Made by a program: the position numbers and the translations under genes
DNA from: Prevotella sp.
Lineage (GTDB): Bacteria > Bacteroidota > Bacteroidia > Bacteroidales > Bacteroidaceae
Assembly: GCA_017483805.1 (NCBI GenBank)
Contig: JAFUUL010000155.1
Span: 1 to 39,338 of the forward strand
DNA: 39,338 nt
Direction of reading: 5' to 3'
The notes under the pieces: model-generated
The model's input: the letters and a program-made list of their open reading frames with translations, nothing else
What the model was told of the DNA's origin: nothing
Databases searched by the model: none
In this document: one piece after another, positions 606-38,198 of the stretch
Numbering within the stretch: the stretch's first letter is position 1
Layout: the number at the start of each line of letters is the position of its first letter

Positions 606-1838
606 CTATTTCAGTTGCTTGCCGTCGGAAAAAGCCTTGCCTACGGTCTTGCCCAGTTGGATATAGGTGTGGTGGACGGGGTCGTAAGTGATGATGCCCA
701 TCTTCTCTACATCGGGGTTGCCGTCGGCTGCGAGATACTTCTCGTCGCAGAGGACGTTGACAATCTCGCCCACGAGATAGTAGCCGGTCTCGCTCTCATC
801 GATCTTCTGCTTCACGCGACACTCGAGTGTCAGGGGCAGGTTGGTGATGACGGGGGCATTCACATTGGGTGCCTTTTTCGTTGTCCAACCTGTGCGGGCC
901 ATCTTGTCGGGCGTGTTGCGACCGCTGACAATGCCCACATAGTCGGCTGCGACTTCTGTCTCTGCGGTAGCAAAGGCTACGGTGAACTCATTGTTGACCT
1001 TCAGATTATCAGTTGTAGCGTGCGAACTGAGCGAGATGACGATCTCGTGCATGTCCCACTGTCCGCCCCAGGCGGCATTCATGGCGTTGGGCTTGCCATC
1101 CTTGTCGTAGGTGCCGATGATGAGCACCGGCTGTGGAATGATCCACGGTTTTGATCCGAAACTTTTCATAGATTCTACAGTATTAGTGTTAGACTTGTTG
1201 ATTAGTGCCGTCTGGATGTCGGCCTCGATGGCGGCCACCTGGTCGGTGGGCTCGTAGCGCTTCAAGACGCGACCGTCGCGAGAGACGAGGAACTTGGTAA
1301 AGTTCCACTTGATGTCCGGGTTCTTGTCGTAGTCGGCGTCCCGCTTGCGCAGCATCTGGTCCATCATCTTGCCCCGCTGGTCGTTGAGGTCGAAACCTGC
1401 GAAACCTTGCTGCGACTTCAGATAAGTGAAGAGCGGCGACTCGCCAGGGCCATTGACATCGATCTTGTCGAACTGCGGAAAGCGGATGTCGAAGTTGGCG
1501 GTGCAGAACTCGTGGATCTCCTGAATGGTGCCGGGAGCCTGCTGGCCAAACTGGTTGCAGGGGAAGTCGAGTATCTCCAGGCCCTGCTGCTGGTATTTCT
1601 CATAGAGTGCCTCCAGTTCCTTGTACTGAGGGGTGAAGCCACAGCGGGTGGCGGTGTTCACGATGAGCAGCACCTTGCCCTTGTAGTCGGAGAGCGACAC
1701 GTCACGGCCGGCATCGTCCTTCACGCTGATGTCATAGATAGTCTTTCCTGCGCAACATGACTTGCCACAGGTTTCTTGTGCCGAAAGAGTCAGCACGCAG
1801 AGGGTTGCCACGAGGCAGAGGGTCATTATTCGTTTCAT
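606..1838 (-). CDS. Exported glutathione peroxidase fused to a flavin reductase-like domain
   Basis: Residues 1-20 look like a type I signal peptide ending LSA|QE. Residues about 33-212 are a glutathione peroxidase domain: NTATRCGF with the peroxidatic Cys66 in place of selenocysteine, FPCNQFG at 92-98 and WNFTKF at 178-183. Residues about 224-410 resemble small FMN-binding flavin reductases (NAMNAAWGGQWD, then the split-barrel core). Enzymes of the first family reduce peroxides with thiol donors; the second family binds FMN. The signal peptide implies both domains act outside the cytoplasm. The linker (about 213-223) is rich in Asn, Thr and Ser and is AT-rich in the DNA. Met224 (ATG at 1167-1169) is where a free-standing flavin reductase would start, so a recent fusion or an internal start are both possible. 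It is the last gene of the peroxide cluster. Confidence 0.85.
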   Translation of the reverse strand: MKRIMTLCLVATLCVLTLSAQETCGKSCCAGKTIYDISVKDDAGRDVSLSDYKGKVLLIVNTATRCGFTPQYKELEALYEKYQQQGLEILDFPCNQFGQQAPGTIQEIHEFCTANFDIRFPQFDKIDVNGPGESPLFTYLKSQQGFAGFDLNDQRGKMMDQMLRKRDADYDKNPDIKWNFTKFLVSRDGRVLKRYEPTDQVAAIEADIQTALINKSNTNTVESMKSFGSKPWIIPQPVLIIGTYDKDGKPNAMNAAWGGQWDMHEIVISLSSHATTDNLKVNNEFTVAFATAETEVAADYVGIVSGRNTPDKMARTGWTTKKAPNVNAPVITNLPLTLECRVKQKIDESETGYYLVGEIVNVLCDEKYLAADGNPDVEKMGIITYDPVHHTYIQLGKTVGKAFSDGKQLK

Positions 1839-3023: not shown

Positions 3024-4613
3024 TCAGAACTCGCTGGTGAAGTGGAACTGGATGTGCTCGAAGTCCTGTTGGGCCATCTGGAGCACGTAGCCGGAATCGG
3101 CCAGGAAGACGTCGCGGCCCTCCTTATCCTTGGCCATATACTGATATTTGCGCTTCTTGAACTGCTCCAGTTCCTGCTCGTTGTCACTCGAGATCCAGCA
3201 GGCCTTGTAGAGGTGGACGGGCTCCCAGCGGCACTTGGCGTTGTATTCGTTCTCCAAGCGGTACTGGATGACCTCGAACTGCAGTTGGCCTACGGTGCCG
3301 ATGATCTTGCGGTTGTTGAACTGGTTGACAAAGAGTTGGGCCACGCCCTCGTCCATCAGTTGGTCGATGCCCTTCTGCAGTTGCTTGGCCTTCATGGGGT
3401 CGTCGTTCTCGATGTACTTGAACAGTTCGGGCGAGAACGAAGGCAGACCGCGGAAGTGGAGTGGCTCGCCCTCTGTGAGCGTGTCGCCTATCTTGAAGAT
3501 ACCGCCCGTGTCAGGCAGACCCACGATGTCGCCTGGCCAGGCCTCGTCGATGGTAGACTTGCGCTGGGCCATGAACTGCGTAGGCGAAGTGAAGCGCATA
3601 GTCTTGCCCTGACGGACGTGCAGGTAGGGCACGTTGCGCTGGAACTTGCCCGAGCACACCTTGCAGAAAGCGATGCACGAACGATGGTTGGGATCGATGT
3701 TGGCGGTGATCTTGAAGATGAAACCAGTGAACTTAGGTTCCTCGGGCTGCACGTCGCGCTCCTCGGCCTTGGTGGGACGGGGACTGGGGGCTATCTCGAC
3801 GAAACAGTTCAAGAGTTCCTGCACGCCGAAGTTGTTGAGGGCCGATCCGAAGAAGACGGGGGCCACTTCGGCCTGCCGGTAGGTCTCTACATCGAACTCT
3901 GGGTAGACGCCTTCTACCAGTTCCAAGTCGTCGCGCAGTTTCTGGGCGTCCTGCTCTCCCACACGGGCATCCAGTTCGGGGCTGTCTATGTCTACCTCCA
4001 CTTTCTCGGTGACGCGCTGCTTGTCGGGGGTAAAGAGGTCCAGTTTCTGCTCGTAGATGTTGTAGACGCCCTTGAACTTGGCCCCCTGGTTGATGGGCCA
4101 CGACAAGGGGCGCACCTTGATCTCCAGTTCCTGCTCCAGTTCGTCGAGCAGGTCGAAGGGGTCGCGGCCCTCGCGGTCCATCTTGTTGATGAAGATGATG
4201 ACGGGGGTCTTGCGCATGCGGCAGACGGTCATCAGTTTGCGGGTCTGCGTCTCCACGCCTTTAGCGCCGTCCACCACGATGATGGCCGAGTCGACGGCAG
4301 TCAGCGTGCGGAAGGTGTCTTCAGCAAAGTCCTGGTGGCCAGGGGTGTCGAGGATATTCACCTTGTACTCAATATCCTTGCCGTCTGGCGTGTAGTCGAA
4401 CTCCATCACCGAGGTCGATACGCTGATGCCACGCTGCTTCTCTATCTCCATCCAGTCGCTTGTGGCGGTCTTCTTGATCTTGTTGTTCTTCACTGCACCA
4501 GCCACCTGTATCTGTCCGCCGAAGAGCAGGAATTTCTCTGTCAGCGTGGTCTTACCGGCATCGGGGTGCGAAATGATTGCGAATGTTCTTCTTCTCTCTA
4601 TCTCTTGATTCAT
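3024..4613 (-). CDS. prfC: Peptide chain release factor 3 (RF3)
   Basis: RF3 is the GTPase that removes RF1 or RF2 from the ribosome after termination. The G1 motif HPDAGKTT is at residues 16-23, followed by the switch region [15 protein letters not shown]3 DTPGHQDF and G4 NKMD. The C-terminal part fits RF3 ([17 protein letters not shown], and a tail with [14 protein letters not shown]). From [11 protein letters not shown] the protein has 529 residues, the normal length. The frame is open to an ATG at 4658, but that would overlap the upstream gene and add 15 residues absent from the family. It is the last gene of the minus-strand unit that begins at 8600. Confidence 0.96.
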
Positions 4614-19139: not shown

Positions 19140-19618
19140 TTGTAAACTTTCATGGCGCGATCCATCTCGCGGCGGTCCTCTTTCTCCTTCAGCGTCTGGC
19201 GCTTGTCGTAGGCCTTCTTGCCCTTGCAGAGGGCGATGTCCATCTTGGCCCGTCCGTTCTCGTCGATGAAGACGAGCGTGGGCACGATGGTGTAGCCCGT
19301 CTGCTTGGTGGCACTCTCCAGTCGGCTTATCTCGCGGCGGGTGAGCAGCAGTTTGCGGTCGCGCTTCTGCTCGTGGTTGTTGTAAGAGCCGTAGAAGTAG
19401 GGGCTGATGCTCATGCCCTTCACCCACAGTTCACCGCGGATGATGGTGCAATAGGTGTCTACGAGCGAGGCCTTGCCCGCACGGATGCTCTTGATCTCGG
19501 TGCCCGTGAGGACGATGCCTGCCGTCAGTTCCTCGATGAAGAAATATTCGAAGGCGGCCTTCTTGTTTTTTATCTGTACGGGACTCTTCTTGCGAATCTC
19601 CTCTTGCTGTTTGTTCAT
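19136..19618 (-). CDS. smpB: SsrA-binding protein SmpB
   Basis: Partner of tmRNA in rescue of stalled ribosomes. The sequence shows [34 protein letters not shown], the [19 protein letters not shown] beta-barrel segment, and the basic tail [26 protein letters not shown] that inserts in the ribosomal mRNA channel. Length 160 is normal. Start overlaps the DMP19 stop and its own stop overlaps metH, both as ATGA. The tmRNA gene itself is not seen in this window. Confidence 0.97.
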
Positions 19619-20121
19619 TCTATCGTTGCGAATTTCTCAATGTTCTCGTCTACATAGTGGGCAATCTGATCCGTCCAGCGCTCTTCGTTCTCGACGAACA
19701 TATCATCATAGTCGTCGAACTGGGGATACTGCTCGAAGAGGGCCATAAACTCCTCGTCGGTGCAGTCGCGCTCCAGGGCCTCGCGATGCTCCAGCCAGAG
19801 GGTGTGCACCTCGTAGAGCATCTTCGAGAGGTCGCGCAAGTGCCACATTTTGTTCAGGGCCTTGGCAAAGGGATTCTTGAAGATGAAGGGGCCATAGCCG
19901 TTGTGTATCAACTGGATAAAGCCTCCGTCCATCACTTCCTGGTGGAGCGTGTCCCAGCAGAGCAGGGTCATCTGGTCGGCATTCAACTGCTGCATGGTCT
20001 CAGCCGTCGGTTCACCGCCGATGGCCTGGCGCAGGGCGTCGATGAACACCTGCAGAAACTCGTCCATTCCCTCAAGAGCCGCCTGGCTCAGTGCTTCGTC
20101 TTTTACAGTTACTTGTATCAT
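19615..20121 (-). CDS. DMP19-like (DUF4375) protein
   Basis: A 168-residue acidic soluble protein. The central motif [20 protein letters not shown] matches the DMP19/DUF4375 family (typically E-x-x-NGGF-x-Q with NG). The C-terminus is strongly acidic ([15 protein letters not shown]). In Neisseria the namesake is a DNA mimic; that function should not be assumed here. First gene of the six-gene unit; its ATG lies only seven bases past the -7 box, so the message may be nearly leaderless. Confidence 0.78.
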
Positions 20122-20198: not shown

Positions 20199-20281
20199 GT
20201 TTGGACGGAGCAAACTGGGAGTTTGGACGAAGCAAACCCAGAGTTTGGACGAAGCAAACCCCAGGTTTGGACCGTCCAAAG
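20199..20281. repeat. Palindromic 22-base-period array, four units (locus B)
   Basis: Units start at 20199, 20221, 20243 and 20265, exactly 22 bases apart, each 17 bases: GTTTGGACGGAGCAAAC, GTTTGGACGAAGCAAAC twice, and GTTTGGACCGTCCAAAG. The outer GTTTG/CAAAC arms are kept while the core varies; the last unit is the most symmetrical. The spacers are TGGGA, CCAGA and CCCAG. The array lies between the minus-strand DMP19 promoter and the arabinose operon. Confidence 0.88.
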
Positions 20282-20304
20282 TCATGGGAGGGTGTTTTCG
20301 GGGT

Positions 20305-20431
20305 GCGGCGAAGCGGCGAATGCGGCGAAGCATTCCATAGAGATATTAAAAAATAAGAAAAGGCTCATTCAATATAAATATAAAAAATTAATAAGTCTAA
20401 GAAATGCTTCGCCGCTTCGCCGCTTCGCCGC
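20305..20431. repeat. Long inverted repeat with GCGGCGAA tandem arms
   Basis: The left arm (20305-20334) and right arm (20403-20431) are exact reverse complements except for one extra T at 20321. Each arm contains three consecutive GCGGCGAA-type units and ends GCATT. The 68-base loop is very AT-rich with no reading frame. As RNA it would form a 29-bp stem. It may be a non-autonomous element or a structural RNA; no transposase or target duplication is evident. Confidence 0.8.
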
Positions 20432-20516
20432 ATCTGCTAAAAATGCACATCAGAGGCAACAAAGACGGACGAAATGAACGAAAATTGCGCCCTATGCACA
20501 AATACATTGAAAAAGA

Positions 20517-20604: not shown

Positions 20605-21789
20605 ATGAAAGCATTAAAAGCATCTTTCTTTGGACTGAGTGCCATGCTGGCTCTCACGATGATGTCGTGCGACCCTCAGCAGACACAGCAACTGACGGCC
20701 TCGGGCCTGAACCCCGCCAAGTTTGACACCATCGTCGGCGGCGACACCGTGCGCCTCTACACGCTGAAGGGCGACAAGGGCATGGAGGTGTGCATCACCA
20801 ACTACGGCGGCCGAGTGGTCAGCCTGATGGTGCCCGACAAGAACGACTCGCTCGTAGACGTCGTGCTGGGCTTCGACAACATCGCCCAGTACATGGAGAA
20901 GACCACCGACTACGGCTCCAGCGTAGGCCGCTATGCCAACCGCATCAACCTGGGTAAGTTCACCCTGAACGACAGCACCTATCAGTTGAAGCAGAACGAC
21001 CGTCACCCCGGCGACCGCAACCACTGTCTGCACGGCGGCGGCGACACGGGATGGATGAACCAGGTCTACAAGGCTGAGCAGGTGGACGACCAGACCTTGA
21101 AGTTGACCATCACGGCCCAGGACGGCGAGAACGGATTCCCCGGCAACGTAGTGGCCACCACCACCTACAAGATAGTGGACGGCAACACGCTGGACATCAC
21201 CTGGGAGGCTACCACCGACCAGCCCACCATCATCAACCAGACCAACCACAACTACTACAACCTCTCCGGCAACTTCGAGGAGTTCGAAGGCGGCCTGCAG
21301 CAGATGCTGATGGTCAACGCCGACTCGTTCACCGTGGCTGACGACAGTTATATGCCCACCGGCGAGATTCGTGCCGTAGAGGGCACCACGATGGACTTGC
21401 GCCAGGAGCACGTCATCATCGAGGGCCTGGACCGCGAGTTCGACCAGGTGAAGAACGCCAACGGCGGCTACGACCACAACTGGTGTCTGAACACCAAGGG
21501 TGACGACACCCAAGTATGCGCCACGCTCTACAGCCCCCTGACCGGCATCTTCATGGAGATGTACACCAACGAGCCCGGCGTGCAGGTCTACACCGGCAAC
21601 TTCCAGGGCATAGGCGGCGAGGAGAACATCGTCCGCAAACTGGGCAAGCACTATCCTCAGTACATCTCGGTATGTCTGGAGAGCCAGAAGTATCCCGACA
21701 GCCCCAACCACCCCGAGTGGCCCAGCCCCGTGGTGACACCCGAGAAGCCCTACTACAGTCACGCAGCCTATAAATTCAGCACAAAATAA
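20605..21789 (+). CDS. galM: Aldose 1-epimerase (mutarotase), lipoprotein
   Basis: Interconverts alpha and beta anomers of aldoses. The N-terminus is a lipoprotein signal with lipobox LTMMSC (Cys22), so the enzyme is exported and membrane-anchored, unlike cytoplasmic GalM. Active-site sequences are visible: GRYANRINLGKF, HCLHGG, and NQTNHNYYNLSG with the catalytic His, plus NFQGIGGEEN near the C-terminal catalytic Glu. First gene of the arabinose operon, three bases before the MFS porter, so it likely presents the right anomer of arabinose or related sugars for uptake. Confidence 0.93.
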   Translation: MKALKASFFGLSAMLALTMMSCDPQQTQQLTASGLNPAKFDTIVGGDTVRLYTLKGDKGMEVCITNYGGRVVSLMVPDKNDSLVDVVLGFDNIAQYMEKTTDYGSSVGRYANRINLGKFTLNDSTYQLKQNDRHPGDRNHCLHGGGDTGWMNQVYKAEQVDDQTLKLTITAQDGENGFPGNVVATTTYKIVDGNTLDITWEATTDQPTIINQTNHNYYNLSGNFEEFEGGLQQMLMVNADSFTVADDSYMPTGEIRAVEGTTMDLRQEHVIIEGLDREFDQVKNANGGYDHNWCLNTKGDDTQVCATLYSPLTGIFMEMYTNEPGVQVYTGNFQGIGGEENIVRKLGKHYPQYISVCLESQKYPDSPNHPEWPSPVVTPEKPYYSHAAYKFSTK

Positions 21790-29695: not shown

Positions 29696-31708
29696 ATGAA
29701 CGACAACAAAGTAATGCTGAAGGCAGCCGACAACATCCGTATCCTGGCTGCCGCTATGGTAGAAAAGGCTAAGTCGGGACACCCCGGCGGTGCCATGGGT
29801 GGTGCTGACTTCATCAACACCCTGTACAGTGAGTTCCTGGTCTACGACCCCGAGAATCCCGCATGGGAAGGCCGTGACCGCTTCTTCCTCGACCCCGGCC
29901 ACATGGCTCCGATGCTCTACAGCCAACTCTGTCTCATCGGCAAGTACACCCTCGAGGATCTACAGCAACTGCGCCAGTGGGGCTCCGTCACGCCCGGCCA
30001 CCCCGAGCGCGAGATTGAGCGCGGCATCGAGAACACCAGCGGTCCCCTCGGCCAGGGCCACACCTTCGCCGTGGGTGCTGCCATCGCAGCCAAGTTCCTG
30101 AAGGCCCGTCTGGGCGACGTGATGAACCAGACCATCTACGCCTACATCTCCGATGGTGGCGTGCAGGAGGAAATCTCGCAGGGCGCAGGCCGCATAGCCG
30201 GCAACCTGGGCCTGGACAACCTCATCATGTTCTACGACGCCAACGACATCCAACTCTCCACCCGCACCGAAGTGGTGACCATCGAGGACACCGCCAAGAA
30301 GTATGAGGCATGGGGCTGGTATGTACAGAAGATCGACGGCAACGATGTCGACCAGATTCGCGAGGCCATCAAGAAGGCTCAGGCTGAGAAGGAGCGTCCC
30401 AGCCTCATCATCGGCCACTGCGTCATGGGCAAGGGTGCCCGCAAGGCCGACGGCTCGTCCTACGAGAGCAACTGCGCCACCCACGGTGCTCCCCTCGGCG
30501 GCGACAACTTCGTACAGACGATGAAGAACCTGGGTGCCGATCCCGAGAACCCCTTCCAGATCTTCCCCGAGGTCAAGGAACTCTACGCCCGTCGTGCTGA
30601 GGAACTGAAGAAGATCGTGGCTGAGCGCTATGCCGCCAAGGCCGCCTGGGCCAAGGCCAATCCCGAGAAGGCCGCCCTGCTCGAAGAGTGGTTCAGCGGT
30701 CGCGCTCCTAAGATCGACTGGAGCAAGGTCGAGCAGAAGGCAGGTGCCGCCACCCGCGGTGCTTCTGCCACCGTGCTGTCAGTGCTGGCCGAGCAGGTGC
30801 CCAACATGATCTGCGCCTCTGCCGACCTGTCTAACAGCGACAAGACCGACGGCTTCCTGAAGAAGACCCACGACATCGTGCGCGGCGACTTCAGCGGTGC
30901 CTTCTTCCAGGCTGGCGTGGCCGAACTCACCATGGCCTGCTGCTGCATCGGCATGGCCCTCCACGGAGGCGTCATTCCCGCCTGCGGCACCTTCTTCGTT
31001 TTCTCTGACTACATGAAGCCTGCCGTGCGCATGGCAGCCCTCATGGAGTTGCCCGTCAAGTTCATCTGGACCCACGATGCCTTCCGCGTCGGTGAGGACG
31101 GCCCCACCCACGAGCCCGTGGAGCAGGAGGCACAGATCCGCCTGATGGAGAAACTGAAGAACCACCACGGCCGAAACAGCGTGCTCGTTGTCCGTCCTGC
31201 CGATGCCGAGGAGACCACCGTCTGCTGGCGCATGGCTATGGAGAATACCCTCACGCCCACGGCCCTCATCTTCTCTCGCCAGAACATCGAGATGCTGCCC
31301 GCCGGCAACGACTACACGCAGGCTACTAAGGGTGCCTATGTGGTGGCCGGCTCCGACGCTGACTACGATGTCATCCTGCTGGCCAGCGGCTCTGAGGTGT
31401 CCACCCTCGAGGCTGGTGCCACGCTGCTGCGTCAGGACGGCGTGAAGGTGCGCATCGTCAGCGTGCCCAGCGAAGGCCTGTTCCGCAGCCAGTCGAAGGA
31501 ATACCAGCAGAGCGTGCTGCCCTGCGGCAAGAAGAAGTTCGGCCTGACCGCCGGTCTGCCTGTCACACTCGAGGGTCTTGTGGGTGCCGACGGCACGGTG
31601 TGGGGTCTGCAGAGTTTCGGTTTCTCGGCTCCCTACAAGGTGCTCGACGAGAAACTCGGCTACACCGGCCAGAACGTCTACGAGCAGGTGAAGAAACTGC
31701 TGGCCTAA
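29696..31708 (+). CDS. tkt: Transketolase
   Basis: Thiamine-diphosphate enzyme passing two-carbon units between D-xylulose-5-phosphate and aldoses, the exit from this operon into the pentose phosphate pathway. Full length, 670 residues. N-terminal KAKSGHPGGAMGGAD, LDPGHMAPMLYS and GPLGQGHTFAVGAA are present. The ThDP-Mg motif is atypical: YISDGGVQEEISQGAGRIAGN in place of the usual GDGCxxEG. The pyrimidine and C-terminal domains follow (THDAFRVGEDGPTHEPVEQ). A 60-base gap after araB contains no clear promoter or terminator. Confidence 0.94.
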   Translation: MNDNKVMLKAADNIRILAAAMVEKAKSGHPGGAMGGADFINTLYSEFLVYDPENPAWEGRDRFFLDPGHMAPMLYSQLCLIGKYTLEDLQQLRQWGSVTPGHPEREIERGIENTSGPLGQGHTFAVGAAIAAKFLKARLGDVMNQTIYAYISDGGVQEEISQGAGRIAGNLGLDNLIMFYDANDIQLSTRTEVVTIEDTAKKYEAWGWYVQKIDGNDVDQIREAIKKAQAEKERPSLIIGHCVMGKGARKADGSSYESNCATHGAPLGGDNFVQTMKNLGADPENPFQIFPEVKELYARRAEELKKIVAERYAAKAAWAKANPEKAALLEEWFSGRAPKIDWSKVEQKAGAATRGASATVLSVLAEQVPNMICASADLSNSDKTDGFLKKTHDIVRGDFSGAFFQAGVAELTMACCCIGMALHGGVIPACGTFFVFSDYMKPAVRMAALMELPVKFIWTHDAFRVGEDGPTHEPVEQEAQIRLMEKLKNHHGRNSVLVVRPADAEETTVCWRMAMENTLTPTALIFSRQNIEMLPAGNDYTQATKGAYVVAGSDADYDVILLASGSEVSTLEAGATLLRQDGVKVRIVSVPSEGLFRSQSKEYQQSVLPCGKKKFGLTAGLPVTLEGLVGADGTVWGLQSFGFSAPYKVLDEKLGYTGQNVYEQVKKLLA

Positions 31709-31894: not shown

Positions 31895-31937
31895 CTTTTG
31901 AGGGAGAAATCATTCGGAAGAAGAAAGAAAAACGCAT

Positions 31938-32039
31938 CTTCGGGTGCAAAGTATGGCAGGTTAGGCAGTAAGGTATGGCACTTTACTATGGTAAAGTCCT
32001 ATCGGAACGACCGTAGAGTGCCATACCTTGCACCCGAAG
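31938..32039. repeat. 102-base inverted repeat with internal hairpin
   Basis: The outer 21-base arms (31938-31958 and 32019-32039) are reverse complements except for one base; they begin CTTCGGGTGCAA. The 60-base interior holds a second hairpin, ACTTTAC (31980-31986) with GTAAAGT (31991-31997), and a repeat of GTATGGCA (31951-31958 and 31973-31980). No reading frame. It may be a small mobile-element relic or a structured RNA. Confidence 0.75.
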
Positions 32040-32075
32040 ACAGCATCGGGAAAAGCCGAAGATGACGGCTGCTGG

Positions 32076-32158
32076 CTTTGAAGCCTCCAAGCGGGGAGTT
32101 TGAAGGCTTCAAACGGGTGGTTTGGAGGCTCCAAACCCATCGATTGGAGGCTTCAAAC
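32076..32158. repeat. Palindromic 22-base-period array, four core units (locus C)
   Basis: Units of 17 bases start at 32076, 32098, 32120 and 32142, exactly 22 apart: CTTTGAAGCCTCCAAGC, GTTTGAAGGCTTCAAAC, GTTTGGAGGCTCCAAAC, GATTGGAGGCTTCAAAC. The middle two are perfect dyads that differ by a paired change. In the same register to the left, 32054-32070 (AGCCG...CGGCT) and 32033-32050 (CCCGA...TCGGG) are also dyads with unrelated arms. The array lies between convergent genes. Confidence 0.88.
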
Positions 32159-32175
32159 TCATAGTTGCCTTGGGG

Positions 32176-32191
32176 ATCGGGATTTCCCGAT
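32176..32191. terminator. Palindrome past the YihY stop codon
   Basis: ATCGGGATTTCCCGAT is a 7-bp dyad with a TT centre, 19 bases beyond the stop of the minus-strand YihY gene. It could act as a terminator, but it lacks a T run. Confidence 0.35.
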
Positions 32192-32210: not shown

Positions 32211-33527
32211 TCAGCAACGAGCGAGGTCCTCCAGGCGGATGGAGCGCGACTGGCGAAGATAGTCGCCGCGCAAGCGGACGGCCTCAGTCCACTGGGAACT
32301 CATCAACTGCCTGACGGGCAGGTCGATCTGCCACTGGCCCTGCGCCTCCAGGCGGTCTATCATCACGCCTACGCTCAGACGGTCGAGACTCTCGGCTGGC
32401 ACGTAGCGCGAGGCGTCACCCTTCTCGTCGGGCGAGATCTCTATCAGCAGGCGGGCCTCGATGAGACGGTAGAGCAGGTCGTTGACGATGCGGATGGGGA
32501 TGCCCGTCTCCTGGCGCAGGTCATCGGCCGTGGCGGCACGACGGCCGGCGGCAAAGCGGCGGCAGACGCGCGACATGAGCACGGAGGAGAGCATCAACTG
32601 ATAGCGATGGCTGATGTTGTCGGTGCGGGCGTCGTAGTCGTAGTAGTCCAGATTCTGCGAGGTGTAGGTCAGTTCAGCCCCGAAGAGGCAGATGGTCCAC
32701 GATATCTGCACCCAGAGCATGAAGAGCGGCAGGGCGGCAAAGGATCCGTAGATGGCGTTGTAGCCCGTCACCCAGAGTTGGGAGTGGATGTAGAAGAACT
32801 GCACCAACTGCATGGCGATGCCGGCCAGGATGCCGGGCACGATGGCGTTTTTCACCTTCACGTGGGTGTTGGGCATGAAGACGTAGAGGCCCACGAAGAG
32901 CAGCGACATGAGCACGTAGGGCGTGGCGTCGATGAGCCAGCGCACGACGGGGCCGAGCAGCAGGAAATCGGGCAACGACTTGGCCACGGTGGCCAGGAAG
33001 AGGCTGATGCCCGACGAGACGACGATGAGGATGGGGAAGAGGAAGAACATGGCCAGATAGTCGGTGATGGTGCGGAAGATGCTGCGCTTCTTCTTCACCT
33101 GCCATATCTCGTTGAAGGTCTGCTCGATGTTGCTCACCAGCATCATCACGGTGTAGAGCATGAAGATGAGGCCCACGCCGAGGAAGATGCCGCTCTTGGT
33201 GTGGACGAGGTAACTATTGACGAAGCCGATGATGACCTCGGCCACCTGTGGCTGCGACGAGAAGGCATCGCGGAACCACACCTCGATGAACTTGTTGTAG
33301 CCAAAGCCACGGGCGATGGCGAAGACGACGGCCAGTATGGGTACGATTGCGAGCAGCGTGCTATAGGTGAGGGCCGAAGCCTGGGTCAGCACGCGCTTGG
33401 TAGTGAAGAAGCGCACGGCCAGGAAGGCCGTCTTGATGATGGCAAAGAGCACACGCCGGACGGGCGGCAGTTTGTCGTCGTCAATCCGCCACATCTCCAC
33501 CTGAAGGAATCGTATCAGTCGCTTCAC
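32211..33527 (-). CDS. YihY/UPF0761 family inner-membrane protein
   Basis: A 438-residue protein with six predicted membrane helices of the YihY (once miscalled ribonuclease BN) family: LTQASALTYSTLLAIVPILAVVFAI, LYTVMMLVSNIEQTFNEIW, YVFMPNTHVKVKNAIVPG and GYNAIYGSFAALPLFMLWVQISW are typical. After residue about 300 there is a cytoplasmic extension resembling a winged helix (ATADDLRQETGIPIRIVNDLLYRLIEARLL). Start is GTG at 33527, which fits the N-terminus MKRLIRF; the codon follows an AT-rich heptamer repeat. It lies downstream of the RNase P RNA gene. Function unknown. Confidence 0.88.
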   Translation of the reverse strand: MKRLIRFLQVEMWRIDDDKLPPVRRVLFAIIKTAFLAVRFFTTKRVLTQASALTYSTLLAIVPILAVVFAIARGFGYNKFIEVWFRDAFSSQPQVAEVIIGFVNSYLVHTKSGIFLGVGLIFMLYTVMMLVSNIEQTFNEIWQVKKKRSIFRTITDYLAMFFLFPILIVVSSGISLFLATVAKSLPDFLLLGPVVRWLIDATPYVLMSLLFVGLYVFMPNTHVKVKNAIVPGILAGIAMQLVQFFYIHSQLWVTGYNAIYGSFAALPLFMLWVQISWTICLFGAELTYTSQNLDYYDYDARTDNISHRYQLMLSSVLMSRVCRRFAAGRRAATADDLRQETGIPIRIVNDLLYRLIEARLLIEISPDEKGDASRYVPAESLDRLSVGVMIDRLEAQGQWQIDLPVRQLMSSQWTEAVRLRGDYLRQSRSIRLEDLARC

Positions 33528-33531
33528 CCCC

Positions 33532-33566
33532 TTTAACTGTTAACTCTTTATTCTTAACTCTTAATT
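33532..33566. repeat. Heptamer tandem repeat between rnpB and YihY
   Basis: Five consecutive heptamers on the plus strand: TTTAACT, GTTAACT, CTTTATT, CTTAACT, CTTAATT. The run ends close to the YihY start codon on one side and at the RNase P RNA 3' end on the other. Confidence 0.65.
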
Positions 33567-37325: not shown

Positions 37326-38126
37326 ATGACAAGTCATCCAATATTCAGACGAACGGAACTGCTGCTGGGCAACGAGGCGATGGAGCGAATCAGCCGCCAG
37401 CGAGTGATCATCTTCGGCGTGGGCGGCGTGGGGTCGTGGTGTGCCGAGAGCCTGGTGCGCTCCGGTATTCAGCATCTGACGATCGTAGACTCCGACCGCG
37501 TGTGCATCACCAATGTAAACCGCCAGTTGATGGCCACCATGCAAACCGTGGGCCAGGTGAAGGTGGAGGCCCTGCGCGAACGCCTGCTGGCCATCAACCC
37601 CAAAGCCGAGATTACGGCCCTGCAGCAGATATTCACCGAAGATACCGCCGAGAGTTTCACCATCGGCGACTACGACTACATCATCGATGCCATCGACTCG
37701 CTGAAGGACAAGGTGCTGCTCATCGAGATGGCTTGTCGCACGAAGGCCAAGTTCTTCTCGTCGATGGGGGCTGCACTGAAGATGGACCCCACACGAATCA
37801 AGGTGGCCGAGTTCTGGAAGGTGCAGGGAGACCCGCTTGCCCGTGCACTGCGCAAGAAGTTTAAGTCGCTCCAGCGGTTTCCCAAGCGCAAGTTTCTGTG
37901 CGTCTATTCCGACGAACTATTGCAGAACCGCGGGCACAACGCCACCTGCGGCACCGAACAGTGCATGTGCCCCAAAGCACAAAGCGGCCCTGGCGACCCT
38001 ACCCTGCTGAATCACGAATGGTGTTCGGCCAAGGCACAGATCAACGGCACCGTGGCCCACATCACGGCCATCTTCGGCTTCACGCTGGCAGGGCTGGTGA
38101 TGAAGGATGTGATGAGTGATGAGTGA
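37326..38126 (+). CDS. tcdA: tRNA threonylcarbamoyladenosine dehydratase TcdA
   Basis: An E1/ThiF-fold ATP-dependent enzyme that cyclises t6A37 to ct6A in tRNAs. The nucleotide-binding loop is VIIFGVGGVGSWCAESLVRSG, with the ThiF-type ITNVNRQLMA motif and DYIIDAIDSLKDK. A Cys cluster TCGTEQCMCP and the C-terminal GTVAHITAIFGFTLAG helix match TcdA/CsdL. Length 266 is normal. No promoter is seen in the 21 bases after the tRNA terminator, so it may depend on read-through. The stop codon lies inside the heptamer repeat that follows. Confidence 0.92.
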   Translation: MTSHPIFRRTELLLGNEAMERISRQRVIIFGVGGVGSWCAESLVRSGIQHLTIVDSDRVCITNVNRQLMATMQTVGQVKVEALRERLLAINPKAEITALQQIFTEDTAESFTIGDYDYIIDAIDSLKDKVLLIEMACRTKAKFFSSMGAALKMDPTRIKVAEFWKVQGDPLARALRKKFKSLQRFPKRKFLCVYSDELLQNRGHNATCGTEQCMCPKAQSGPGDPTLLNHEWCSAKAQINGTVAHITAIFGFTLAGLVMKDVMSDE

Positions 38127-38198
38127 TGAGTGATAAACGAAAAGTGATGAGTGGTTAGTCTTCCACCCATCACTTTTCACTTATCACTTATCACTTCC
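38109..38198. repeat. Mirrored heptamer repeats forming a terminator-like stem
   Basis: Four heptamers GTGATGA, GTGATGA, GTGATGA, GTGATAA (38109-38136) contain the tcdA stop. Four on the other side, CACTTTT, CACTTAT, CACTTAT, CACTTCC (38171-38198), run up to the stop codon of the convergent mutase gene. Between them AAAAGTGATGAGTGG (38140-38154) and CCACCCATCACTTTT (38163-38177) pair with one mismatch and an 8-base loop. It probably ends both transcripts. Confidence 0.75.

Follow-up and report, generated by a model that had tools for sequence, protein, structure and literature searches.

The window, by which we mean the whole 39,338-nucleotide stretch of Prevotella DNA that was analysed, contains an array of four 17-bp dyads (array C) between two convergent genes, together with two further arrays (A and B). 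The features of these loci are listed below; arrays and repeats are given without a strand.

544-582, no strand: array A, two units at 22 bp, starting at 544 (GTTTGGAGGCTCCAAAC) and 566 (GTTTGAAGCCTCCAAAC)
606-1838, minus strand: glutathione peroxidase / flavin reductase-like gene, its 3′ end abutting array A
19615-20121, minus strand: DMP19-like gene, left of array B
20199-20281, no strand: array B, four units at 22 bp, starting at 20199, 20221, 20243 and 20265
20304-20434, no strand: GC-rich inverted repeat (TGCGGCGAAGCGGCGAA / TTCGCCGCTTCGCCGCA), adjacent to array B
20605-21789, plus strand: aldose 1-epimerase gene, right of array B
29696-31708, plus strand: transketolase gene, left of array C and convergent with the gene to its right (Pfam Transketolase_N, Transket_pyr, Transketolase_C_1)
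31935-32075, no strand: dispersed inverted-repeat (MITE-like) element, main inverted repeat 31937-31958 / 32019-32040
32076-32158, no strand: array C, four 17-bp dyads starting at 32076, 32098, 32120 and 32142, in 22-bp register with 5-bp spacers GGGGA, GGGTG and CCATC
32211-33527, minus strand: YihY/BrkB-family membrane protein gene, right of array C and convergent (Pfam PF03631)

The units of array C start exactly 22 bp apart, as an earlier note on this DNA had described, and its remark that the same architecture occurs at two other places was borne out by the units at 544/566 and at 20199/20221/20243/20265, again with a period of 22. Compared with the pattern GTTTG-N7-CAAAC, the units at 32098 and 32120 are exact, that at 32142 has one mismatch and that at 32076 has two. 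Array A lies 23 bp beyond the stop codon of the minus-strand gene 606-1838, and the inner sequence of array B is of the GACGAAG type. Beyond A, B and C, no other array of GTT..AAC or CAA..TTG pairs was found within the window. Single units with up to two mismatches were not significantly enriched window-wide (19 compared with 13.1 expected, a number reached by 6 of 100 shuffles). The signal resides in exact units and their register, not in loose single-unit counts.

The earlier note had proposed three readings for array C: a phased protein-binding array, a chain of RNA hairpins or a selfish repeat. The first fits the observations below best, the second is disfavoured and the third is a live rival.

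Arrays recur genome-wide in an exact 22-bp register

The genome from which the window derives (own genome, G000) is a 3.63-Mb draft of 199 contigs (completeness 91.7, contamination 7.2). It contains 109 exact GTTTG-N7-CAAAC units and 52 exact unit pairs at 22 bp, compared with 1 and 0, respectively, for the reversed-pattern control. Two main types of inner sequence occur, RAGSCTY and GACGAAG-like. One contig of the same draft (G000:C134, locus L140) is a near-duplicate of the window region around 32000, which suggests a strain mixture in the draft genome; L140 was omitted from the tests of unit number and spacer pairing and kept in the unit, neighbour, position, covariation and arm-versus-flank sets.

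The register was equally strict elsewhere. Within 400 kb of the relative G085, three-unit CAA..TTG arrays numbered 20 at a period of 22 and 0 at periods of 20, 21, 23 and 24. Across 52 loci homologous to three array-bearing genes of the own genome (collected for other purposes, and some of them overlapping), a scan of dyad lengths 13-19 found triples of perfect 5-bp-arm dyads solely at period 22 (8 counts). Random unit spacing genome-wide, the outcome that the earlier note had set against its proposal, was not what we found: the 22-bp register is exact in both G000 and G085. A sequence-free scan for perfect 5-bp arms gave almost no matches in G085, since the arms in that genome are invariant in their outer 3 bp only; arrays of this genome were then found by CAA..TTG scans and a weight matrix.

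The layout is kept where the palindrome sequence differs

The exact GTTTG pair pattern was present in 0 of 35 same-genus relatives and, among the matches listed, the named records bearing it are mostly rumen Prevotella MAGs. The looser three-unit pattern GTT-N11-AAC at 22 bp was found in 17 of 71 same-genus relatives, and its reversal CAA-N11-TTG, intended as a control, in 23 of 71. Because the reversed pattern was itself enriched, genomes of other genera were used as the control instead: three-unit 22-bp arrays of either arm type occur in 34 of 71 same-genus relatives compared with 1 of 47 genomes of other genera. The palindromes themselves are unlike between genomes (GTTTTGC..GCAAAAC in G017, GTTCCCACGGAGGGAAC in G007, GTTCCACCCCATGGAAC in G035 and CAATTTGGGCGAAATTG in G085). 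Arrays are also carried by two Bacteroides species, with 42 three-unit GTT..AAC matches in B. xylanisolvens XB1A and 24 in B. congonensis; the sister MAG RGIG4792 has 42, and Xylanibacter brevis has one together with 15 CAA..TTG matches. The architecture is thus more widespread than any one palindrome sequence.

Array positions are generally not common to distant species. Comparison of the own genome with G082 and G085 gave scattered coincidences only, at about the number expected from a rough reckoning. Clustering of 664 proteins encoded at 129 array loci gave no transposase or other recurrent family that stood out among the 25 largest clusters, inspected by eye, and searches of the open-licence literature for the array sequences and the topic returned no description that we recognised. 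CRISPR arrays have repeats with unique spacers of about 30 bp, and cas genes; the 5-bp spacers of the present arrays do not agree with this, and no recurrent family stood out among the largest clusters of neighbouring proteins.

Turnover between sister species

The main alternative to protein binding is that the arrays are a tamed mobile minisatellite, parasites or hitchhikers spread by transposases that act on MITE-like elements, in the manner of BrickBuilt. We consider this doubtful, while giving it a substantial chance. Evidence on both sides came from the sister species RGIG4792 (G119), which was queried with 34 segments from 40 loci (without L107, L123, L127, L139, L140, L124 and the window arrays). 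Twenty-four of the 30 returned loci were examined and the second matches L341 and L344 were left uncounted, giving 22 own arrays for comparison. Fifteen are kept in the sister (L118 in degraded form), five are absent or truncated, one is replaced and one (L141) was left unclassified. The five absent or truncated arrays (L105, L108, L110, L120 and L133) are all of the RAGSCTY type; those arrays are therefore dispensable, and own arrays without a full counterpart are what a mobile repeat would produce. For L117, the sister instead has a same-type array at a distance of about 200 bp, and at the array C locus (sister L098) the neighbouring element is present and the array absent.

Changes were seen as whole 22-bp units at array B, L113 and L118; the aligned sister locus of array B has one extra unit, and at L113/L330 the inner sequence has been replaced between near-identical flanks. 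When 38 units were compared, 25 had changed, 3 of them by exact inversion, and another differed by a single central base, which could be a point mutation. The clearest inversion is at L122/L322, where one unit (L122 2876-2892) is flipped and the downstream flank is identical. This points to template switching, or to a different mechanism of inversion acting at short inverted repeats.

In the 11 of the 15 kept arrays that aligned in register without gaps, mismatches amounted to 12/380 in arms, 36/266 in inner sequences, 39/135 in spacers and 123/1023 in flanks. That the arms diverge less than the flanks (P=7e-8) speaks against the mobile alternative. Since own arrays had been chosen for intact arms, the comparison was repeated with the flank rate halved, which left a marginal difference (P=0.04).

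Some arrays are carried by MITE-like elements

A ~106-bp inverted-repeat element, of which the window copy lies beside array C, adjoins an array in 8 of its 9 own-genome copies among the fetched loci (one, L140, duplicates the window copy), and this association supports mobility. The element also occurs without an array, at L143 and at the sister locus L098. The earlier note had taken two dyads beside array C as a continuation of its register. One of them, AGCCG-N7-CGGCT at 32054, is indeed in register; the other, CCCGA-N8-TCGGG at 32033, spans 18 bases and is displaced by one base. As both belong to a separate element that is also found array-free, the continuation holds only in part. In the window, L133, L140 and L141, the dyad that precedes the array by one register has all of its pairs (5/5); in L110, L117, L124 and L132 it has 3-4/5 (L110, L117 and L132 judged by eye). 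The ends of the element resemble a Bacteroidetes promoter motif (TAnnTTTGCACCC; window 31935-32075, L098 6500-6700 and L143), and those of the 31935-32075 element could direct transcription into array C. Sequence resembling the GC-rich inverted repeat at 20304-20434 adjoins arrays in L114 and L129.

A second carrier was found in B. congonensis (L370-L375), where a ~480-bp element with long terminal inverted repeats (ends AAAATGATATAATTATCTTGCAC) holds an array in its middle; five copies are near-identical and the sixth differs on its left side. Arrays riding in MITE-like elements indicate that some arrays are mobile passengers. Against a general explanation of this kind, no such element was seen by eye beside most own arrays, the largest clusters of neighbouring proteins lack a transposase, and a search of 12 genomes for the Y1 transposase family PF01797 gave no match in five, each of which bears arrays (G082, which is only 80% complete, G017, G070, G003 and G026).

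Comparison with known dispersed repeats gave partial likenesses. BrickBuilt of P. gingivalis is, in the excerpted description, a 23-nt repeat without spacers, always intergenic, with a repeat number of 1 to 22.8 and 19 copies in strain ATCC 33277 (PMC4596501). As far as that excerpt goes, it resembles the present arrays in belonging to the same order, Bacteroidales, in forming tandem repeats that are dispersed between genes with almost the same period and, for some arrays, in a setting like its MITE leader and tail (PMC4596501). Unlike BrickBuilt, the arrays have a 22-bp period and a 17+5 layout, with 0 arrays at period 23 in the 400 kb of G085, and a 17-bp dyad followed by 5 bp is absent from the excerpted BrickBuilt description (PMC4596501). 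The REP/BIME elements, in the part of the source considered, are likewise short palindromes in tens to hundreds of dispersed copies with species-specific families; unlike them, the arrays keep a strict 22-bp register (PMC3733652). By eye, no GTAG or CGTC tag was seen on array units, which are symmetric as GTT-N11-AAC or CAA-N11-TTG. RAYT/REP repeats of the GTAG type, for which a cognate Y1 (RAYT) transposase is known, were rejected on the five array-bearing genomes in which PF01797 was not found; this result is silent on CGTC repeats, which according to the excerpted source have no dedicated transposase.

Arrays within protein-coding linkers

Four multi-unit arrays lie within predicted ORFs, which is in keeping with a mobile repeat. 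Each has three exact or near-exact units and spans 66 nt, so the reading frame is kept. The genes encode a CobB/CobQ-like protein, a TolC-family outer membrane protein, a protein with a DUF4450 match below the Pfam cut-off and a protein without a Pfam family. The linker of the CobB-like gene carries a GTTTG-arm array in the own and sister genomes, three perfect GTTCC..GGAAC dyads at 22 bp in G018, and three GTTCG..CGGAC units at 22 bp in G013, where 4/5 arm pairs match. Because the encoded linker peptides differ, it is the DNA layout that is kept, and unrelated palindromes in one linker of three species are not explained by the copying of one element. No array was seen by eye in the CobB-like linker of G020, G009 and G015. 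No clean empty site was found in homologues of the CobB-like gene, L134 or the TolC-like gene, whose aligned linkers are variable. In G006 (L150), heptamer repeats (TTCACTC) stand where other species have 22-bp arrays.

Rickettsia palindromic elements are palindromic repeats that lie in frame inside proteins, and the four arrays here share this presence in coding genes. Unlike those elements, they are 66-bp arrays of a 22-bp unit, the peptide is not conserved across species and most arrays are intergenic.

Unit number is narrow and arrays avoid one another

A weight-matrix scan of 400 contiguous, unselected kb of G085 found 21 arrays, 21 of 21 with three or four units, besides 16 lone weak matches. 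Three or four units were also found in 38/42 arrays of G085, 26/27 of G082, 15/20 of B. xylanisolvens and 27/39 of the own genome, in sets that were seeded or chosen by exact hits. The dominance of three or four units counts against the mobile alternative.

Distances between arrays were compared with simulated placement, with gap thresholds set after the data were seen. The 21 arrays of G085 have a mean gap of 19.3 kb and a coefficient of variation of 0.52, lower than expected from uniform placement (P=0.00065; P=0.0035 with the lone matches counted in). When placement was drawn from the 135 intergenic regions, the coefficient of variation gave P 0.0018-0.0028, and 1 gap was shorter than 8 kb compared with 6.5-6.9 expected (P 0.0004-0.0008). 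Across the complete genome of G085, the 71 arrays with exact three-unit hits (a list that includes 13 of the 21 found in the 400 kb) likewise have 1 gap below 8 kb compared with 13.4 expected, which was unreached in 20,000 simulations; on this scale the arrays are only weakly even (coefficient of variation 0.82, P=0.05).

On the six contigs of the own genome with two or three arrays, 0 of 7 gaps were under 11.9 kb (P=0.0024) and none was below 8 kb, compared with 2.6 expected (P=0.027). Counting the lone and degenerate units on contigs C27 and C77 introduces a 3.0-kb gap and changes these values to P=0.17 for the minimum gap and P=0.045 for the 8-kb test. The nine contigs of G082 that hold two or more listed arrays among C1-C17 gave 24 gaps, none of them shorter than 4.1 kb (P=0.0026) and 8 of them below 8 kb compared with 8.7 expected, so in this genome the deficit is confined to distances below 4 kb. 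Arrays thus avoid one another, strongly in G085 and more weakly in the own genome and G082. On the mobile reading, the missing close neighbours would reflect target immunity or the loss of close pairs.

No regional bias was detected in G085, whose eighths, taken irrespective of the origin, contain 9, 5, 6, 11, 14, 8, 7 and 11 arrays (chi-square P=0.42).

Arms vary nearly independently

A further alternative is that the units, singly or as a whole array, form hairpins in RNA or single-stranded DNA, acting as terminators, mRNA stabilisers or cruciforms. Several observations point this way. Relative to dinucleotide shuffles, folding is favourable for array C (z -5.5) and array B (z -6.2); of the 46 own clusters, 15 are no more than 40 bp 3′ of a predicted stop codon; the single-unit flips are as expected from template switching at inverted repeats; and a few outermost units have complementary flanks when inspected by eye.

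The arms themselves do not behave as paired strands. The earlier note had read a matched pair change as a sign that symmetry is kept, and had proposed an excess of paired over unpaired changes as the test. Little excess was found in G000, G082 or G085: agreement at the paired positions 4-8 is about that of shuffled partners, and the arms vary nearly independently. The change that it had singled out is pair 6 in G000, which agrees in 0.32 of units compared with a shuffle mean of 0.39, no excess; among distinct units the value is 0.42 (shuffle mean 0.33, maximum 0.58). Across all 106 units of G000, a set that includes the near-duplicate L140 and L210 (which overlaps L106), pair 5 exceeds the shuffle maximum (0.94 compared with 0.92), as does pair 8 (0.71 compared with 0.54), and both excesses vanish when the 24 distinct units alone are counted. 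For G082, pair 6 lies above the shuffles on all units (0.72 compared with 0.70) and not on distinct units, and pair 8 is below chance (0.20 compared with 0.35). In G085, pair 8 is above the shuffles on all units (0.97 compared with 0.96) and on distinct units (0.91 compared with 0.87); on all units, pair 6 equals the shuffle maximum (0.83) and pair 7 is below chance (0.13 compared with 0.41).

In each of four genomes, spacers around units or around the array centre showed no more nested complementarity than expected at random (P 0.07-0.86). Adjacent spacers resembled each other more than expected in two of them (G000 and G121), which was not the case in G082 or G085. For arrays B and C, structure prediction gave a single long nested hairpin as the dominant fold, not a hairpin chain. 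A chain of RNA hairpins is therefore not supported by arm covariation, spacer pairing or folding. In addition, the symmetry often reaches near the centre of a unit and leaves little loop, arrays also lie inside ORFs and between divergent genes, and an Rfam search of 701 bases around array C gave 5 weak matches, all far under the gathering threshold. We regard hairpins of either kind as improbable. The near-independent arms and the lack of nested spacer pairing favour half-sites for a dimeric protein over RNA hairpins.

DNA uptake sequences are short single sites at a much higher density than the arrays, whose separation ranges from several to tens of kilobases. Signatures of self-DNA written in species dialects, akin to such sequences or to Chi-type recombination marks, are the least probable reading, one that we think very unlikely: the species-specific sequence, common layout, wide dispersal and avoidance of close neighbours agree with it, and the sparse placement and complex multi-dimer sites do not. 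The likeness lies in genome-wide marks that differ between related species, as described for the dialects of Neisseriaceae in the part of the source considered (PMC3630211).

A model of cooperative docking

Taken together, the strict two-turn register, the narrow unit number, the near-independent half-sites, the changing specificity, the avoidance of neighbours and the conservation of arms lead us to favour, tentatively and at somewhat less than an even chance, a model in which the arrays are cooperative docking sites for a putative fast-changing DNA-binding protein, perhaps a chromosome-organising one. From these features we infer protein binding, a single protein and a chromosomal role. An array of ~83 bp would be a docking platform for several dimers of one sequence-specific protein, and each 17-bp dyad would be the site of one dimer, with two half-sites around one central base. 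The distance between successive half-sites would alternate between 12 and 10 bp, close to one helical turn, such that three to four dimers could bind cooperatively on one face of the DNA. Distances of several to some tens of kilobases may be maintained between arrays, which would lie at sites that tolerate inserted DNA, mostly intergenic and sometimes in-frame protein linkers. The specificity of the protein would differ by species, with the arrays changing along, so that layout is kept and sequence is not. Units would turn over by 22-bp gain or loss, single-unit flips and spacer change, and MITE-like elements would carry some arrays to new sites. The most likely role would be to organise or mark the chromosome, as domain anchors or by seeding a nucleoid protein. 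Counting against the model are the largely unshared array positions of distant species, the dispensable RAGSCTY-type arrays, the carriage of some arrays in dispersed elements, the absence of a prominent family among the largest neighbour clusters, the arm pairs that lie above the shuffles, the marginal arm conservation at the halved flank rate and the limits of the spacing tests given above.

SlmA, Noc and MatP have dispersed palindromic binding sites with a role on the scale of the chromosome, and sites of this type show a macrodomain bias, being confined to the terminus or excluded from it. The present arrays differ from them in comprising three to four sites instead of single ones, in changing sequence within a genus and, in G085, in showing no regional bias. 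BldC sites are direct repeats at regulated genes, whereas the present sites are genome-wide dyad arrays. Cooperative binding to repeated DNA sites, as proposed for the arrays, is described for BldC in the excerpted source (PMC5859096).

A more far-reaching version of the docking model is that the arrays constitute a chromosome addressing system across the Bacteroidaceae, in which 83-bp four-dimer arrays are selected at near-regular intervals and written in species dialects, even through coding linkers, for a putative reader protein of species-specific DNA recognition; we judge this version unlikely, though worth stating. If the arrays are docking sites, they would form a genome-wide system in which the geometry stays and each species rewrites the sequence, would imply co-evolution of a DNA-binding protein with tens of sites per genome, and would open a way into the study of chromosome folding in a dominant group of gut and rumen bacteria. 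As parasites, they would instead represent a minisatellite with a narrow range of copy number that has entered protein linkers in frame. The carriers include the named strains Bacteroides xylanisolvens XB1A, B. congonensis Marseille-P3132T and Xylanibacter brevis ATCC 19188, which makes the model directly testable.

Other observations

The only contig of the viral collection with an exact pair is L103 (IMG/VR contig IMGVR_UViG_3300038345_000181), which bears three GTTTG-N7-CAAAC units at 22 bp at positions 3434-3494. The window also contains runs of 7-base repeats at 33533-33564, 38109-38153 and 38169-38196 (TTAACTC, GTGATGA and ATCACTT). Positions 1-150 of the window and positions 1-150 of L142 open with a common dispersed sequence (GGACATAGCAAAGCCCTGGCTTGAGAAAGTCGGGGCTTTG...).
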